NCBI GenBank assembly: GCA_025451355.1
Contig: JANWKN010000033.1
Coordinates: forward strand, 1-39,112
Source: Pseudolabrys sp.
Lineage (GTDB): Bacteria > Pseudomonadota > Alphaproteobacteria > Rhizobiales > Xanthobacteraceae
Reading direction: 5' to 3'
DNA length: 39,112 nucleotides
Position 1 is the first letter of the stretch. Every line of letters begins with the position of its first letter. The notes under the pieces are model-generated. The model saw only the letters and a program-made list of their open reading frames with translations, searched no databases and was not told the DNA's origin. Position numbers and translations under genes: made by a program. Of this stretch, positions 21,641 to 29,730 are shown piece by piece.

Positions 21641-22254
21641 TCGGTAAGCTCAAGGGCATCGTGGACAGTTACGGCGAGGATTACATCATCCTCGACGTCG
21701 GCGGCGTCGGCTATCAGGTGCATTGCTCCGCGCGCACGCTGCAGGCGCTTCCCTCACCAGGCGAGGCGGCCACCTTGTCCATCGAAACCCATGTGCGTGA
21801 GGACCAGATCAAGCTGTTCGGTTTTGCCAGCGACCTCGAACGCGAGTGGTTCCGGCTGCTGCAGACAGTGCAAGGGGTGGGTGCCAAGGTCGCGATGTCG
21901 GTGCTCGGCACGCTGAAGCCATCCGAACTCGCTTCAGCAGTTGCCATGCGTGACAAGGCAATGGTGGCCCGCACGCCGGGCGTGGGTCCGAAAGTGGCGG
22001 AGCGTATCGTCACCGAACTGAAAGACAAGGCACCCGCTTACGCAAACGTCGATCCCGCGGTCGTGCATCTTGCCGGCGCGCTTGATGAAAAGCGTGCGCC
22101 AAGGCCGATCACTGATGCTGTTTCCGCGCTGGTCAATCTCGGTTATGGACATCCGCAGGCGGCTGCCGCCATCGCGGCCGCGGCACGCAGTGCGGGTGAC
22201 GACGCAGACACCGCGACGCTGATCCGGCACGGTCTGAAGGAATTGGCAAGATGA
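21637..22254 (+). CDS. ruvA: Holliday junction branch migration protein RuvA
   Basis: [31 protein letters not shown]; 4-nt ATGA overlap with ruvC; start trimmed from 21559. Confidence 0.97.
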
Positions 22255-23291
22255 ACAGTCCGCGCCGACTGGTGGCTGCCGACAAGCGCGACGACGATGT
22301 CGATGCTTCGTTGCGTCCACAGCAACTCAGCGAGTTTGTCGGGCAGCAGCAGGCGCGCGCCAATCTGAAGGTCTTTATTGAGGCAGCACGGGCGCGCAAA
22401 GAGGCGCTCGACCATGTGCTGTTCGTGGGGCCACCGGGCTTGGGCAAGACGACGTTGGCGCAGATCGTGGCGCGCGAATTGGGTGTCAGCTTTCGCGCTA
22501 CTTCCGGCCCGGTAATTGCCAAAGCGGGCGACCTTGCGGCGCTGCTGACCAATCTTGAGCCGCGCGATGTGCTGTTCATCGACGAGATTCACCGACTCAA
22601 CCCGGCAGTCGAGGAAATTCTTTATCCAGCGATGGAGGATTTCCAACTCGACCTCATCATCGGGGAAGGGCCGGCTGCGCGCTCGGTCAAGATCGATCTC
22701 TCCCCCTTCACATTGGTCGGCGCGACAACGCGAGCGGGACTGCTGACAAATCCGTTGCGCGACCGCTTCGGCATTCCGGTGCGGCTTAACTTCTATACCG
22801 AGAAAGAGCTCGAAGAGATCGTCGATCGTGGAGCGCGCGTGCTCCGCATCGGCATCGCCCCAGATGGCGCCAATGAAATCGCGCGGCGCGCCCGCGGCAC
22901 CCCGCGCATCGCGGGACGTCTCCTGCGTCGTGTGCGCGACTTTGCCCATGTCGACGGTGCAAAGACCATCGACCGGAAAGTTGCTGACCGCGCGTTGTTG
23001 GCGCTTGAGGTCGATGCCGCCGGCCTGGATGCGATGGATCGGCGCTATCTCTCGACCATCGCGTCGAGTTACGGAGGTGGGCCGGTCGGTGTCGATACGC
23101 TCGCGGCCGCGTTGTCGGAACCGCGTGACGCCATCGAGGACATCATCGAGCCATTCCTGATCCAAAAAGGCTTCCTGCAACGGACGCCGCGCGGGCGGTT
23201 ACTGACCGCGCTGGCTTTCCAGCATCTCGGCCTGCCGGAGCCTGCGCGCGATCCGGCCCAGTTTGGGCTGTTTTCCGGAGAGGATGAGTAG
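22251..23291 (+). CDS. ruvB: Holliday junction branch migration helicase RuvB
   Basis: [41 protein letters not shown]. Confidence 0.98.
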
Positions 23292-23691
23292 CGAAAGAAT
23301 CATATCTGTGGTGGCCGCACTGATCCGCGACGGGGACGGGCGCGTTCTGCTGGTCCGCAAGCGCGGGACGGTGGCTTTCATGCAGCCGGGCGGCAAACGC
23401 GACGTTGGCGAAAGCGACGTCGCGGCATTGGCACGCGAAATCGGCGAGGAATTGGGCTGTCGTATCAAGGATAGCAGCGTGCAGGCTCTGGGCGTGTTTG
23501 ATTGCCCGGCGGCGAACGAGCCAGGATTTCAAGTCAACGCCGCTGTCTATGCGGTGGATGTCGACGGTCCGATCAAGCCTGCCGGCGAGATCGATCAGGT
23601 CTTATGGATCGATCCGCGCGCGCTTCCCGACCTCACATTCGCACCATTGACGCGCGACCACGTGCTCCCGCTCGCGCGGTCACTTCAATGA
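23287..23691 (+). CDS. Nudix hydrolase
   Basis: Nudix box [22 protein letters not shown]; start overlaps ruvB stop (ATGAGTAG). Confidence 0.9.
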
Positions 23692-23752
23692 ATGGCTGCA
23701 TTGACGCGCAAGCCGATTGATGCAGTTCTCTCCTGTCTGTAAATAGTTCGCT

Positions 23753-24211
23753 ATGAACTCCCTCGATGGCGAAATTCTCGACGGCCGGCACCATCAGGCT
23801 GTGCGTGTCTATTACGAAGACACGGATTTTTCCGGCATCGTCTATCACGCGAGCTATCTGCGTTTCATGGAGCGCGGCCGCACCAATTATCTACGACTGA
23901 TCGGCGCCGATCATCGCGCGCTGTTCGAACAAGCCGAAAAGGAAGCGCCGGGATTTTCTTTCGTGGTGCGTCATATGAGCATCGATTTCCGCAAGCCCGC
24001 GTTCATGGATGACGTGCTGGACATCGTCACCACACCGGAAGAAGTGAAAGGCGCCTCGGTGACACTCAATCAGAAGGTTATGCGTGGCGTTGATCTACTT
24101 GTGGAAGCGCACGTTCAGGTCGCCTTCGTTTCCGGCGGACGCGCAAAGCCGATCCCGAAGCCGCTGCGCGTTGCCATGAAAGCAGATCAGGAATCGGGCG
24201 GCGTCACCTGA
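23753..24211 (+). CDS. ybgC: Tol-Pal-associated acyl-CoA thioesterase (YbgC)
   Basis: VRVYYEDTDFSGIVYHASYLRFMERGRTNYLR hotdog thioesterase motif. Confidence 0.95.
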   Translation: MNSLDGEILDGRHHQAVRVYYEDTDFSGIVYHASYLRFMERGRTNYLRLIGADHRALFEQAEKEAPGFSFVVRHMSIDFRKPAFMDDVLDIVTTPEEVKGASVTLNQKVMRGVDLLVEAHVQVAFVSGGRAKPIPKPLRVAMKADQESGGVT

Positions 24212-24233
24212 CGGCACGTGCTATTATTTCTGG

Positions 24234-24806
24234 ATGAGCAACAGTTTCGCGATATTCGATACGGCGATCCGTACGTGCGGAATCGTCTGGAACGTGCACG
24301 GCGTGGCCGGCGTGCAGATTCACGACGGAACTGAAGGCGCCACCCGGGCGCACCTGTTGCGGCGTTTTGCCGGCGCAAAGGAAGAGCCGCCTCCTGCACA
24401 TGTGCAGCGGGCGATTGACGGCATCGTTGCACTCTTGTGCGGCGAGAAACGCGACTTGAACGACGTGACGCTCGATACTGGCGATCTGCCGGAGTTCAAT
24501 CGCAAGGTCTACGCCATTGCACGCACGATTCCGCCGGGCTCCACATTGACTTACGGAGAGATTGCGGAACGCCTTGGCGACAGATTATTGGCGCGCGATG
24601 TCGGACAGGCGCTCGGCCAGAATCCGATTCCCTTGATCGTGCCCTGTCATCGTGTGCTCGCTGCGGGCGGCAAGACAGGCGGCTTTTCGGCTCCGGGCGG
24701 CGTCGTCAGCAAGCTCCGTCTGCTGAGCATCGAAGGTGCACAGCCGAGCGGTCCGACATTGTTTGATCATCTGCCGCTGGTCGCCAAACGCGGGCGACGT
24801 TCATAG
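24234..24806 (+). CDS. Methylated-DNA--protein-cysteine methyltransferase
   Basis: Active-site motif IPLIVPCHRVLAAGGKTGGFSAPGG; GSTLTYGEIAERLG. Confidence 0.94.
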   Translation: MSNSFAIFDTAIRTCGIVWNVHGVAGVQIHDGTEGATRAHLLRRFAGAKEEPPPAHVQRAIDGIVALLCGEKRDLNDVTLDTGDLPEFNRKVYAIARTIPPGSTLTYGEIAERLGDRLLARDVGQALGQNPIPLIVPCHRVLAAGGKTGGFSAPGGVVSKLRLLSIEGAQPSGPTLFDHLPLVAKRGRRS

Positions 24807-24835
24807 ATATCGGCGTCGACGCACCTGCCGGACTC

Positions 24836-24854
24836 ATGTTAATCCCGTTTACAT
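24836..24854. promoter_or_regulatory. Putative TetR operator 1 (imperfect 8-3-8 inverted repeat)
   Basis: ATGTTAAT-CCC-GTTTACAT; each arm matches ATGTAAAT/ATTTACAT of 25599-25617 at 7/8; overlaps the TetR start codon at 24853. Confidence 0.6.
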
Positions 24855-25500
24855 GAAATGGGGCAGACGTGCCGGACCGCGCGGCTATCACCACGGCAAC
24901 CTCAAGGAAGCCCTGGTGCGGGCTGCGCTTGAGTTGATTGCTGAGAAGGGACCGGCTGGCTTCACCTTTGCCGACGCCGCGCGCTGGGCAGGCGTAAGTC
25001 CTGCGGCGCCGTATCGGCATTTTCGCGATCGAGACGCGCTGCTCGCCGATGTTGCTCGCCGCGGCTTTCAGGAGTTTGCAAGCGCGCTCGCCAAAGCCTG
25101 GGACGAAGGCAAGCCGGAGGTGATGGCGGCTTTTGACCGTCTCGGCAAAACCTATCTCGCTTTCGCCAAACGCGAGCCGGCCTATTACTCTGCGATGTTC
25201 GAGGCGGGTGTTCCTCTCGATACTGATCGCGAGTTACGCGAGGCTAGCGAGAACGCATTTGCCGTGTTGCGCGCGGCGGCCGAGAAACTGGTTTCGTTGA
25301 TTCCGTCGCCAGGGCGTCCGCCGGCTCTGATGGTCGCATTGCACATATGGTCGATGACGCACGGGATCGCCTCGTTGTTCGGCCGCGGCGACGCGGCCCG
25401 TCGCGCATTACCGATGCCGCCCGAGGAACTGCTGGAAGCTGCCGTCCTTATTTACCTGCGCGGTCTGGGGCTTAACGCGACAGCGGCCCGGCAGCGGTGA
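24853..25500 (+). CDS. TetR/AcrR family regulator (WHG-type C-terminal domain likely)
   Basis: GYHHGNLKEALVRAALELIAEKGPAGFTFADAARWAGVSPAAPYRHFRDRDALLADVARRGF HTH; start trimmed from 24736. Confidence 0.93.
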   Translation: MKWGRRAGPRGYHHGNLKEALVRAALELIAEKGPAGFTFADAARWAGVSPAAPYRHFRDRDALLADVARRGFQEFASALAKAWDEGKPEVMAAFDRLGKTYLAFAKREPAYYSAMFEAGVPLDTDRELREASENAFAVLRAAAEKLVSLIPSPGRPPALMVALHIWSMTHGIASLFGRGDAARRALPMPPEELLEAAVLIYLRGLGLNATAARQR

Positions 25501-25570
25501 GTAGCCAGCGACTTTTGCGCGCAGGTCTGGCGCGGCGCCACAACGCTCACCAATTTAATTTCCGCGCCGC

Positions 25571-25599
25571 TTGACAGTGGCCTCGCCCTGCCCTAACTA
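25571..25599 (+). promoter_or_regulatory. Sigma70-type promoter for DUF2852 gene
   Basis: TTGACA (25571-25576), 17-bp spacer, TAACTA (25594-25599); last base of the -10 enters the palindrome. Confidence 0.6.
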
Positions 25600-25617
25600 T
25601 GTAAATGTTATTTACAT
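25599..25617. promoter_or_regulatory. Putative TetR operator 2 (perfect 8-3-8 inverted repeat)
   Basis: ATGTAAAT-GTT-ATTTACAT, AT-rich island in GC-rich DNA, at the predicted transcription start. Confidence 0.7.
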
Positions 25618-25633
25618 TCACGCGAGGCCGACA

Positions 25634-26047
25634 ATGCCTATCACCGCGCAACTCGACTCTTTCGGAAAACCCGCCTGGATCGCACTGATCGTTCTTGGCT
25701 TCATGGTCTGGTGGCCGCTTGGGCTTAGCGTCCTCGCCTTCACCATCGGGAGCGGAAGAATGGGATGTGGACAGCACCACTGGCAGAACAAGGTGGATCG
25801 AATGCAGCAAAAGATGGATTGGATGAGGTCGCGAATGGGTGGCAGCCCCTGGAATTTCTATGCGCCCTCCAGCGGCAACCGGGCTTTCGACGATTATCGG
25901 GCCGATACGCTGCGGCGCCTTGAGGAAGAGCAGCGCGAGTTCCGTGAGTTCCTCGCGCGTCTTCGTCTGGCGAAGGACAAAACCGAGTTCGACCAGTTCA
26001 TGGCCGAGCGTGGCAACCGGCCTTCGCCGGATCAGCCCCAGAGCTAA
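25634..26047 (+). CDS. DUF2852-family membrane protein
   Basis: GKPAWIALIVLGFMVWWPLGLSVLAFTIGSGRM TM segment followed by FDDYRADTLRRLEEEQREFREFLARLRLAKDKTEFDQFMAER. Confidence 0.85.
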   Translation: MPITAQLDSFGKPAWIALIVLGFMVWWPLGLSVLAFTIGSGRMGCGQHHWQNKVDRMQQKMDWMRSRMGGSPWNFYAPSSGNRAFDDYRADTLRRLEEEQREFREFLARLRLAKDKTEFDQFMAERGNRPSPDQPQS

Positions 26048-26072
26048 ATCGCCCCGCTTTCCTGAAGCAACG

Positions 26073-26104
26073 GGCCGCCCGAGAGGGCGGCCATCGCTTT
26101 TTTC
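26073..26104 (+). terminator. Rho-independent terminator after DUF2852 gene
   Basis: GGCCGCCC-GAGA-GGGCGGCC hairpin followed by atcgcttttttc. Confidence 0.85.
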
Positions 26105-26353
26105 GCCGGCGCGCGGAGGTAACTACTCCTTAACCACAATCAGCGCTGTTTAGAGCGGTTAGGCCCGCTTCCGCGCCCAAGTTTGGCCAAGTTTCGCGGG
26201 GATTTCGTAGGTTACCGGTGGACGGGACCAACGATTTTCGCGAGACGTCCGGCTTAGCGCGTGAGCGGCATCGTCGCGCGCGCATGTCGACTTCGGATAT
26301 TGCGCCGCGCCGGTTCGACCCACGGGACCGGATTAAGCCGAAAGGACGTGCCT

Positions 26354-27067
26354 ATGAATCCTGCCGACGTGGCACAGTCGGTGCTCCCGCTGACTTCTTC
26401 CGATCTTTCGCTGTTCACCCTGTTCTGGAACGCGCACTGGGTCGTCAAGACGGTGATGGTCGGGCTGCTGATCTGCTCAGTCTGGGTCTGGGCGATCGCG
26501 ATCGACAAGACCGTGCTCTATACCCGTTCGCGCCGCGCCATGGATCGTTTCGAGCAGGCCTTCTGGTCGGGGCAGTCGCTGGACGAACTCTACCGCGCGC
26601 TGTCCTCGCGCCCCGCGCATTCGATGGCGGCATTATTCGTGGCCGCGATGCGCGAATGGAAACGCAGTTTCGAGGGAAATGCGCGCACGATCGGTGGATT
26701 GCAGATGCGTATTGAAAAAGTCATGGAAGTGACAATCGCGCGTGAGGTCGAGCGGCTTGAAAGGCGTCTGCTCGTGCTCGCCACCGTCGGGTCGGCGGGA
26801 CCATTTGTCGGGTTGTTCGGTACCGTCTGGGGCATCATGACGAGCTTCCAATCGATCGCCGCATCCAAAAACACATCATTGGCGGTTGTCGCGCCCGGCA
26901 TCGCCGAAGCGCTTTTTGCGACTGCACTCGGCCTTGTCGCCGCCATACCAGCGACGATTTTCTATAACAAGTTCGCGTCCGAAGTTAACAAACAAGCCCA
27001 GCGCCTCGAGGGCTTTGCCGACGAGTTCTCGGCAATTCTGTCCCGGCAGATCGACGAGCGAGGGTAG
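26354..27067 (+). CDS. tolQ: Tol-Pal system protein TolQ
   Basis: MotA/TolQ/ExbB domain (ATVGSAGPFVGLFGTVWGIMTSFQSIAASKNTSLAVVAPGIAEALFATALGLVAAIPATIFYNKF). Confidence 0.96.
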   Translation: MNPADVAQSVLPLTSSDLSLFTLFWNAHWVVKTVMVGLLICSVWVWAIAIDKTVLYTRSRRAMDRFEQAFWSGQSLDELYRALSSRPAHSMAALFVAAMREWKRSFEGNARTIGGLQMRIEKVMEVTIAREVERLERRLLVLATVGSAGPFVGLFGTVWGIMTSFQSIAASKNTSLAVVAPGIAEALFATALGLVAAIPATIFYNKFASEVNKQAQRLEGFADEFSAILSRQIDERG

Positions 27068-27078
27068 GGGATCGCTTC

Positions 27079-27534
27079 ATGGCTGCCAATGCCGGCACGC
27101 CGATCATCGGGAAGCGCAAGCATCATCGCCGCCGGGTGATGAGCGAGATCAACGTGACCCCGATGGTCGACGTGATGCTTGTGCTGTTGATAATTTTTAT
27201 GGTGTCGGCGCCGCTGCTGACGGTCGGCGTTCCGATCGATCTGCCGCAAAGTCAGGCCAAAACCCTGGACCAGGACAAGGAGCCGCTCACCGTTTCTGTC
27301 AACGACAAAGGCCAGATTTTCCTGCAGAATAGCGAAATTGCCGTCGACGATCTGATCCCCAAAATGCAGGCCGTGGCCCAAGCGCGCGGTGGGGTCGAAG
27401 CACGTGTTTACGTACGCGGCGACAAGAAAGTGGACTATGGGACCATGATGCAGGTGATGGGCCGGCTGTCATCGGCCGGCTTTCATCGTGTAGCCTTGGT
27501 TACCGAGTTTGAACAGGGCGCGAAAGCGCGGTGA
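27079..27534 (+). CDS. tolR: Tol-Pal system protein TolR
   Basis: MSEINVTPMVDVMLVLLIIFMVSAPLLTVGVPIDLP ExbD/TolR motif. Confidence 0.97.
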   Translation: MAANAGTPIIGKRKHHRRRVMSEINVTPMVDVMLVLLIIFMVSAPLLTVGVPIDLPQSQAKTLDQDKEPLTVSVNDKGQIFLQNSEIAVDDLIPKMQAVAQARGGVEARVYVRGDKKVDYGTMMQVMGRLSSAGFHRVALVTEFEQGAKAR

Positions 27535-28388
27535 TGAGAAAAGCGACAGCAATATCGGCTGGCCTGCACGCGGCGGTGCTGCTGTGGGCGACGTTCTCAT
27601 TTTCAGGGAAGATGTTCGACGTCACGCCGGCGGAGTCGTTGCCGGTCGACCTCGTCAGCGAAAAAGATTTCTCCGAGATGACCAAGGGCGTGAAGGACGC
27701 GCCGAAGGTCGAGACACCAAAGCCACTGGCCGAGAAAAAAGCCGAAGAGCCGCCCAAACCGGTCGAAGATTCGAAGGCGAAGATCACCGAAAAAAAGGAA
27801 GTTCAGGCCGCGAAGGAAGTTGCGTCGCCGCCCGAGCCGCAACCGACCAAGCCCGATCAGATTGCCGATAAGCTTAAACAACCGGACGAACCAAAGCAGC
27901 AGACCAAGGTCGAGCAGCCACTACCGCCGAAGAAGCCGCCGCAGAAGCCGCAGCCGAAATTCGATGCCGACAAGATCGCGGCTCTGCTCGACAAGCGCGA
28001 TCCACAACGGAATGTCGCGGCCGGGCTGGACCCCAACAACGTTCCGTCCTTGGGAACGCCCTCGGGCATGGCGGCGAGGTTGTCGCAATCCGAAATCGAT
28101 GCGCTTCGTGCCCGATTGATGGCCCTATGGAGTCCCCCGGTCGGTGTGCAGGATCCGAATGAGCTGATCGTCAATGTGACCGTAAGACTTCGCCCCGACG
28201 GCCGTCTGGCGGCGGCGCCATTTGCGCGGGTCAACGGCAGAAGTGTTGCCGCAATGGCCTCGCGCGACAGCGCGGTACGCGCGGTGTTGACAGGTCAGCC
28301 CTTCGACATGCTCAAACCTGAGCATTACGAGAGTTGGAAAGAGATCGAGTTGACGTTCGATCCCAAAGACATGTTTCGGTCAAATTAA
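27531..28388 (+). CDS. tolA: TolA-like cell envelope protein
   Basis: Position tolR-X-tolB; N-terminal TM, Lys/Pro/Glu-rich central region, TonB/TolA-like C-terminus; 4-nt overlap with tolR. Confidence 0.88.
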
Positions 28389-28410
28389 GTCCTCTATTGA
28401 TCCAATCGAA

Positions 28411-29730
28411 ATGACCCAACGATCCGTTCCCCTTCCGCTCACCCGTCGCTGGTTGCTCGCCGGCGCGGGAGCAATGGCTGTTCTTGCGCCACGCGCGGCA
28501 GGTGCGGTGCTGCGGCTCGACATTACGCAGGGTAATTTGCAACCGATGCCGATCGCACTACCAGACTTCGTCTCCGAAACCGACATCGGACGAAATGTTA
28601 CCGCGGTCATCAGCAACAATCTTCAGCGCAGCGGTCTGTTCGCGCCTATCAATCCAGCTGCCTTCATCGAAAAAGTCACCAACAGCGATAACGTGCCGCG
28701 CTTTGCCGATTGGCGCACGATAAACGCTCAGGCGCTCGTCACCGGCCGTATCACGCGCCAGGGTGATGGTCGGCTAAAGGCGGAGTTTCGCCTTTGGGAT
28801 GTGTTCGCGGGCCAGCAGCTCGACGGCAAGCAGTATTTTACGACACCCGATAACTGGCGGCGGATCGCTCACATTATTGCAGACGCGATCTATGAACGCC
28901 TCACTGGCGACAAAGGTTATTTTGACAGCCGTGTCGTATTTGTCGACGAAACCGGCCCGAAGGATCGGCGCGTGAAGCGGCTCGCCATCATGGATCAGGA
29001 TGGCGCCGGCGTACGCTACCTGACGCGCGGCGATGATCTGGTGCTGACGCCCCGCTTCAATCCGTCGACGCAAGAGATCACTTACATGTCGTATGGGCAG
29101 GGCGATCCGCGCGTCTATCTGCTCAACATCGAGACCGGACAACGCGAAATCGTCGGTAACTTTCCTGGCATGACCTTCGCCCCGAGATTTTCCCCCGACG
29201 GTCAGCGCGTCATCATGAGTCTTCAGCAGGGAGGCAATGCCAATCTGTTCGTAATGGACCTACGGTCAAAGCAGACCACGCGTCTCACCGACACTCCGGC
29301 AATCGATACCGCGCCCTGTTACTCACCTGATGGTACCCGCATCTGCTTCGAGAGCGACCGGGGGGGCAGCCAGCAGATCTACGTCATGCCGGCAACCGGC
29401 GGGGCGGCGCAACGCATCAGCTTCGGCGAAGGGCACCATTCGACTCCGGTCTGGTCCCCGCGTGGCGACTACATTGCTTTCACCGGCCAGGCGCGTGGTA
29501 ATTTTGCGATCGGTATTCTCAAACCCGACGGTTCCGGCGAGCGCCTGTTGACCGAAGGCTTCCACAACGAAGGGCCTACATTCGCGCCGAACGGGCGAGT
29601 ACTGATGTTCTTCCGGGACGTAGGCCAGGGGCCAGCGCTCTATACGATCGACATCAGCGGCCGCAATGAATTGAAGGTTCCGACGCCGGCCTATGCATCC
29701 GATCCGGCTTGGTCACCCCTTTTGTCGTGA
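28411..29730 (+). CDS. tolB: Tol-Pal system beta-propeller protein TolB
   Basis: [74 protein letters not shown]. Confidence 0.97.

Follow-up and report, generated by a model that had tools for sequence, protein, structure and literature searches.

Two palindromes lie in a short segment of Pseudolabrys sp. DNA, one over the start of a TetR-family regulator gene and the other in front of the neighboring DUF2852 gene, and they raise the question of whether this regulator reads both sites and how it might control its own gene and its neighbor through them. We examined the locus in the 39,112-nucleotide stretch that contains it (the window), in the remainder of its own genome and in related genomes. 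The regulator gene (24853-25500, + strand, start codon ATG at 24853-24855) encodes 215 amino acids. Its N-terminal helix-turn-helix domain matches Pfam TetR_N (PF00440, 6.4e-11) above the curated cut-off, and its C-terminal domain matches TetR_C_33 (PF13305, 5.4e-14). The AlphaFold model is all-helix (pLDDT 89) with TetR folds as its top PDB matches, the nearest solved structure both by sequence (1.2e-16) and by fold being 3on2. The protein falls below the cut-off of every named NCBIfam equivalog (BetI, RutR, MtrR and others), with a best score of 36.1 bits against the 250 required. The second gene (25634-26047, + strand, 137 amino acids) belongs to the DUF2852 family (PF11014, 4e-47; 159.6 bits against a cut-off of 22.5). 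In its alignment, a hydrophobic helix at the N terminus leads through a variable linker to a conserved, helical C-terminal part that begins SSGNRAFDEYR, and the product is predicted to be a small membrane protein. The structure model has low global confidence (pTM 0.26) and was thus too uncertain for a fold search.

The order of genes, ruvB, nudix, ybgC, O6-methylguanine methyltransferase, TetR, DUF2852 and tolQRAB, is common, with variations, to many relatives. In the window (22251-29730), TetR and DUF2852 stand between the ruvB-ybgC genes and tolQRAB, as they do in many Xanthobacteraceae. Several more distant loci are without the ruvB-ybgC and tolQRAB neighbors, so the TetR-DUF2852 pair is not tied to tol. 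A terminator-like hairpin with a T-run lies 3′ of DUF2852 (26073-26092, + strand) and, judging by its position, may separate this gene from tolQ; hairpins in the surrounding region were in no excess over shuffles.

The initial annotation had described both palindromes as inverted repeats of 8-3-8 geometry, and both lie where it had placed them. The one in front of DUF2852, ATGTAAATGTTATTTACAT (25599-25617), is perfect, with arms ATGTAAAT-GTT-ATTTACAT. The other, ATGTTAATCCCGTTTACAT (24836-24854; arms ATGTTAAT-CCC-GTTTACAT), runs over the TetR start, its final two bases being the first two of the ATG. Each of its arms agrees with the perfect site at 7/8 positions, as had been reported, and its own two arms pair at just 6/8. 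A scan of the window with a degenerate consensus (≤3 mismatches) gave four strand matches at these two places versus 0.19 expected from shuffles, and none of 100 shuffled windows reached four. The genome-wide motif scan that the initial annotation had suggested as a check returned two sites only, both at this locus: among the 2,998,862 bases of its own genome (252 contigs, 72% complete), they were the only zero-mismatch matches to ATGTNAAYNNNRTTNACAT, and the reversed ATGTNAAYNNNRTTNACAT control gave zero matches.

The DUF2852 palindrome had been placed directly behind a promoter, and TTGACA (25571-25576), a 17-base spacer and TAACTA (25594-25599) are present as described, with a one-base overlap between the −10 element and the palindrome. 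The σ70 consensus for rhizobia is CTTGAC-N17-CTATAT; the corresponding bases in the window read CTTGAC-N17-CTAACT, and we assign CTTGACA-N17-TAACTA (25570-25599, + strand) as the predicted DUF2852 promoter. A promoter scanner called no site in this region of the window; since it accepts a −10 element only with T at its final position, our assignment relies on the conserved −35 and −10 columns. In a profile of 75 DUF2852 promoters, the −35 (TTGACA) and −10 elements keep a fixed distance to the operator, which puts the predicted transcription start inside it, near 25606.

The same profile revealed strong conservation over 23-25 positions rather than 19, with at least a dozen columns reaching or approaching 2 bits and most flanking columns near 0. 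The DUF2852 site is therefore not the simple 8-3-8 palindrome it had been taken for: the conserved block is 25 bp long, reaches 25623 and reads ATGTNAATGT-N5-ACATTNACAY. It is composed of two overlapping ATGT-N11-ACAT sites at block positions 1-19 and 7-25. The first, site A (25599-25617), is the perfect palindrome, identified by sequence search, column profile and symmetry; the second, site B (25605-25623), is offset by 6 bp and identified by conserved columns 20, 22 and 23 and by symmetry about column 13. The GTT of the palindrome likewise proved more than a mere spacer, as its G9 and T10 (25607-25608) are each conserved in 73/75 promoters and form part of site B. T20, A22 and C23 are also conserved in 73/75. 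Complementary bases occupy positions 3/23, 4/22, 6/20, 7/19, 8/18, 9/17, 10/16 and 12/14 in 96-99% of promoters, a symmetry centered on position 13 that arises because the two sites overlap in this way. Site B is imperfect in Xanthobacteraceae, its last base being C in 54/75 promoters, and in the window its right half is partly decayed (ACGC, versus ACAC or ACAT), the 25-bp element there carrying one mismatch on the + strand. Given this weakened site B, binding of two dimers may be reduced in the family and in the window. Many Pseudolabrys have a single extra site, O2, exactly 40 bp upstream of site A; the −35 element falls within the right half of O2. Comparison with these relatives points to a remnant of this third site over the −35 in the window (25559-25577), where the right half with TTGACA alone persists.

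The predicted autoregulatory operator of TetR (24836-24854), conserved upstream of TetR in relatives, is instead one ATGT-N11-ACAT site of 19 bp. An operator pair of identical geometry had been proposed; its two places stand, whereas its architecture does not, with a 25-bp double site at DUF2852 and a single 19-bp site at TetR. The column profile shows one site only, GT being absent from the spacer, and conservation is lower than at the DUF2852 operator. We predict a −35 element, TCGAC (24816-24820, + strand), from conserved columns at operator positions −19 to −15 (T69, C63, G71, A57 and C67 of 80). Its location 15-19 bases before the operator means that the −10 should fall within the operator and transcription should begin at most a few bases from the ATG, so that the operator overlaps the start codon as well as the predicted −10 element. 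The TetR mRNA is likely to be leaderless or nearly so, as judged from this spacing. The ATG shares the palindrome’s last two bases in 57/80 relatives, and we rejected the notion that the palindrome’s end coincides with the start codon in every relative, as the two are in frame in these 57 only. In many Pseudolabrys, the operator lies farther upstream of the TetR start. A short upstream reading frame from the ATG of the operator’s left arm was also discarded; it reads ATG-TAA in most relatives.

The 25-bp element is found well beyond the family. Across an order sample of 298 genomes, which includes some Xanthobacteraceae, ATGTNAATGTNANNNACATTNACAY occurred in 85 (≤2 mismatches), and the fetched loci with ≤1 mismatch all have DUF2852 directly downstream, bar one at a contig edge. 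At the class level, 17/192 genomes matched the element with ≤1 mismatch; among the loci fetched, DUF2852 was directly downstream in 12/12 and TetR directly upstream in 11/12. The reversed element gave zero matches among the 192 genomes, and reversed-pattern controls at both levels were essentially empty. Outside Xanthobacteraceae, the element takes the form of the full ATGTNAATGT...ACATTNACAT palindrome, and inner positions of the 19-mer vary; by this comparison, the longer 25-bp form is the more constant one there. DUF2852 homologs without an adjoining TetR exist (e.g., L185), so TetR control of DUF2852 is not universal. Two tandem DUF2852 genes stand behind one 25-bp operator in L215 (1534-2436), L219 (1507-2538) and L220 (527-1510).

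By analogy with QacR, CprB and DarR, the layout at DUF2852 is one that two TetR dimers would be expected to use, and an element holding two dimer sites is present at DUF2852 as well as order- and class-wide. A single TetR dimer could instead occupy the 19-bp palindrome at each place, with DUF2852 bases 20-25 serving the 5′ untranslated region or the transcription start. The degraded right half of site B in the window (ACGC), the usual ACAC rather than ACAT in Xanthobacteraceae and the lone site at TetR all fit such an arrangement, which we nevertheless consider unlikely: columns 20, 22 and 23 are not only conserved in 73/75 promoters but mirror columns 6, 4 and 3, G9 and T10 are held at DUF2852 and not at TetR, and outside the family it is the full ATGTNAATGT...ACATTNACAT palindrome that is kept as the inner 19-mer bases drift.

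Conservation beside orthologs, whose absence the initial annotation had named as grounds for abandoning its proposal, was looked for, and the proposal came through strongly, with sites kept at both promoters. Nearly all loci, both those from the genus and 80 from named genomes, have ATGT-N11-ACAT sites at the start of TetR and ahead of DUF2852. Most genus members have the identical DUF2852 site, ATGTAAATGTTATTTACAT, while their DUF2852 proteins are just ~65-90% identical. A genus-wide genome search with ATGTNAANNNNNTTNACAT found two or three sites in most TetR-bearing genomes, and the sites listed adjoin TetR or DUF2852, except two identical copies on other contigs of G016; the reversed ATGTNAANNNNNTTNACAT control was empty across the whole genus. 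G001, G005, G022, G023 and G036 have no operator sites, no TetR and no DUF2852, reflecting either clean joint loss or incomplete assembly.

Site and regulator also travel together across the family. In a sample of 250 Xanthobacteraceae genomes, 227 of the 228 with TetR had at least one site and 21 of the 22 without it had zero (G214 and G221, absent from the TetR match list and with zero sites, are counted among the 22). The association is strong (Fisher p = 2.6e-28), although the genomes are related and the loci share common ancestry, so this value overstates the independent evidence; the losses span several genera. The single exception, G016, has sites but no TetR, and its DUF2852 gene lies 58 bases from a contig end; its TetR may be off the contig, missing from the assembly. 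Matches exceed three in some genomes (five in G064, four in G123), and additional TetR targets are possible in some species. Both operators are present in genomes of genus g47, which are mostly 6-9 Mb. In genus g48, extra palindromes, ATGTAAATACTATTTACAT and ATGTTAATGGTATTAACAT, lie off the TetR-DUF2852 locus (G224:C3:741089-741107 and G198:C4:165556-165574), and a second TetR match occurs in several g48 genomes, possibly a duplicated regulator with another target.

Where 0.6-3.3 kb of unrelated genes separate TetR from DUF2852 in Pseudolabrys relatives, TetR keeps one site and DUF2852 keeps the others. The sites thus follow their genes, which argues against the DUF2852 site belonging to the 3′ region of the TetR gene. 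The insertions are 1.5-3.3 kb long in L099, L101, L102, L129, L130, L132, L134 and L139, and by eye their reading frames resemble either an HxlR-type regulator and a divergent NmrA/SDR oxidoreductase, or else sigma-factor-like and CMD-like genes. That DUF2852 sites persist with TetR a few kilobases off could suggest that another regulator binds the palindromes and that the TetR gene is a mere neighbor. We regard this as very improbable, since in the 250 genomes site presence tracks the TetR gene almost perfectly, one of the two classes of site lies at TetR’s own promoter, and 11 of the 12 class-level loci have TetR immediately upstream. Scarcely credible at all is that the palindromes work as RNA hairpins in 5′ leaders rather than as protein-binding DNA: a perfect 8-3-8 inverted repeat does lie near the DUF2852 transcript 5′ end, but the predicted start inside it leaves the left arm untranscribed, the TetR copy pairs at only 6/8 positions, what is conserved is the sequence rather than compensatory pairing, and two sites that overlap could not form both hairpins.

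Autorepression together with repression of a single target, as originally proposed, is the best reading that sequence comparison offers, with sites at both promoters, sites that stay with their genes and TetR-site co-occurrence pointing the same way. We hold it highly likely that the local TetR_C_33-type repressor governs its own gene together with a single target, DUF2852, via these predicted operators, and the switch they form is very probably dedicated, ancient and essentially one-target, with autoregulation. In the mechanism that we infer, each ATGT-N11-ACAT unit site would take up one TetR dimer. Two dimers would probably bind the overlapping DUF2852 sites together, over the −10 and start region, and block RNA polymerase, and in many Pseudolabrys a third site over the −35 would be added. 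At its own gene, TetR would act through a single site that covers the −10 and start codon, and autorepression would be weaker, so that DUF2852 would be shut off tightly and tetR more loosely. A putative ligand in the TetR C-terminal domain would release the repressor and turn DUF2852 on.

The literature that we searched held no paper linking DUF2852 to a TetR regulator, no mention of the neighbors of bll7160 and no “WHG domain” TetR paper, and searching by motif text returned unrelated papers only; the switch appears to be of an ordinary kind, yet undescribed and surprisingly old. Bradyrhizobium diazoefficiens bll7160, a DUF2852 gene, is upregulated under microoxia (log2 2.5 for protein, 2.1-fold for mRNA) and 4.9-fold in soybean bacteroids, and is absent from the listed FixK2 or NifA targets (PMC6515984). 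A mapB envelope mutant of Brucella suis has lowered levels of BR2114, also a DUF2852 member (PMC6377625). These data indicate that DUF2852 proteins respond to conditions and serve as leads only for the present locus, where proximity to the tol genes hints at a role in the envelope. With rather more doubt than belief, we picture a class-wide, single-purpose alphaproteobacterial switch: a new TetR subfamily with a 25-bp double operator at DUF2852 and a single own site fused to the start codon, giving differently tuned responses, in which an envelope-associated DUF2852 protein is released by a signal, for instance low oxygen or envelope stress. DUF2852 proteins occur widely in Alphaproteobacteria and are uncharacterized in function, and a conserved operator with a dedicated regulator offers a direct way in; the pair is also an evolutionary test case for double versus single operators under one regulator.

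How does this system compare with characterized TetR regulators? The structure 3on2, a probable transcriptional regulator of Rhodococcus sp. RHA1, is ~30% identical to this TetR, and the matches name no operator, ligand or function for it; our search for a characterized close relative of this TetR_C_33 protein found none. DarR, a distant structural match (8suk, rank 25), responds to cyclic nucleotides and has overlapping palindromic half-sites read by two dimers (PMC10636190). The DUF2852 operator shares such overlapping palindromic half-sites, whereas the DarR operator is 20 bp long and differs in sequence. QacR, CgmR and CprB bind as a dimer of dimers to long operators of 22-32 bp (PMC4150764), and the 25-bp DUF2852 element, with two overlapping units on one promoter, falls in the same size class. 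Targets of that type are mostly efflux pumps or antibiotic pathways, whereas here two-dimer binding is predicted at the gene of a small membrane protein.
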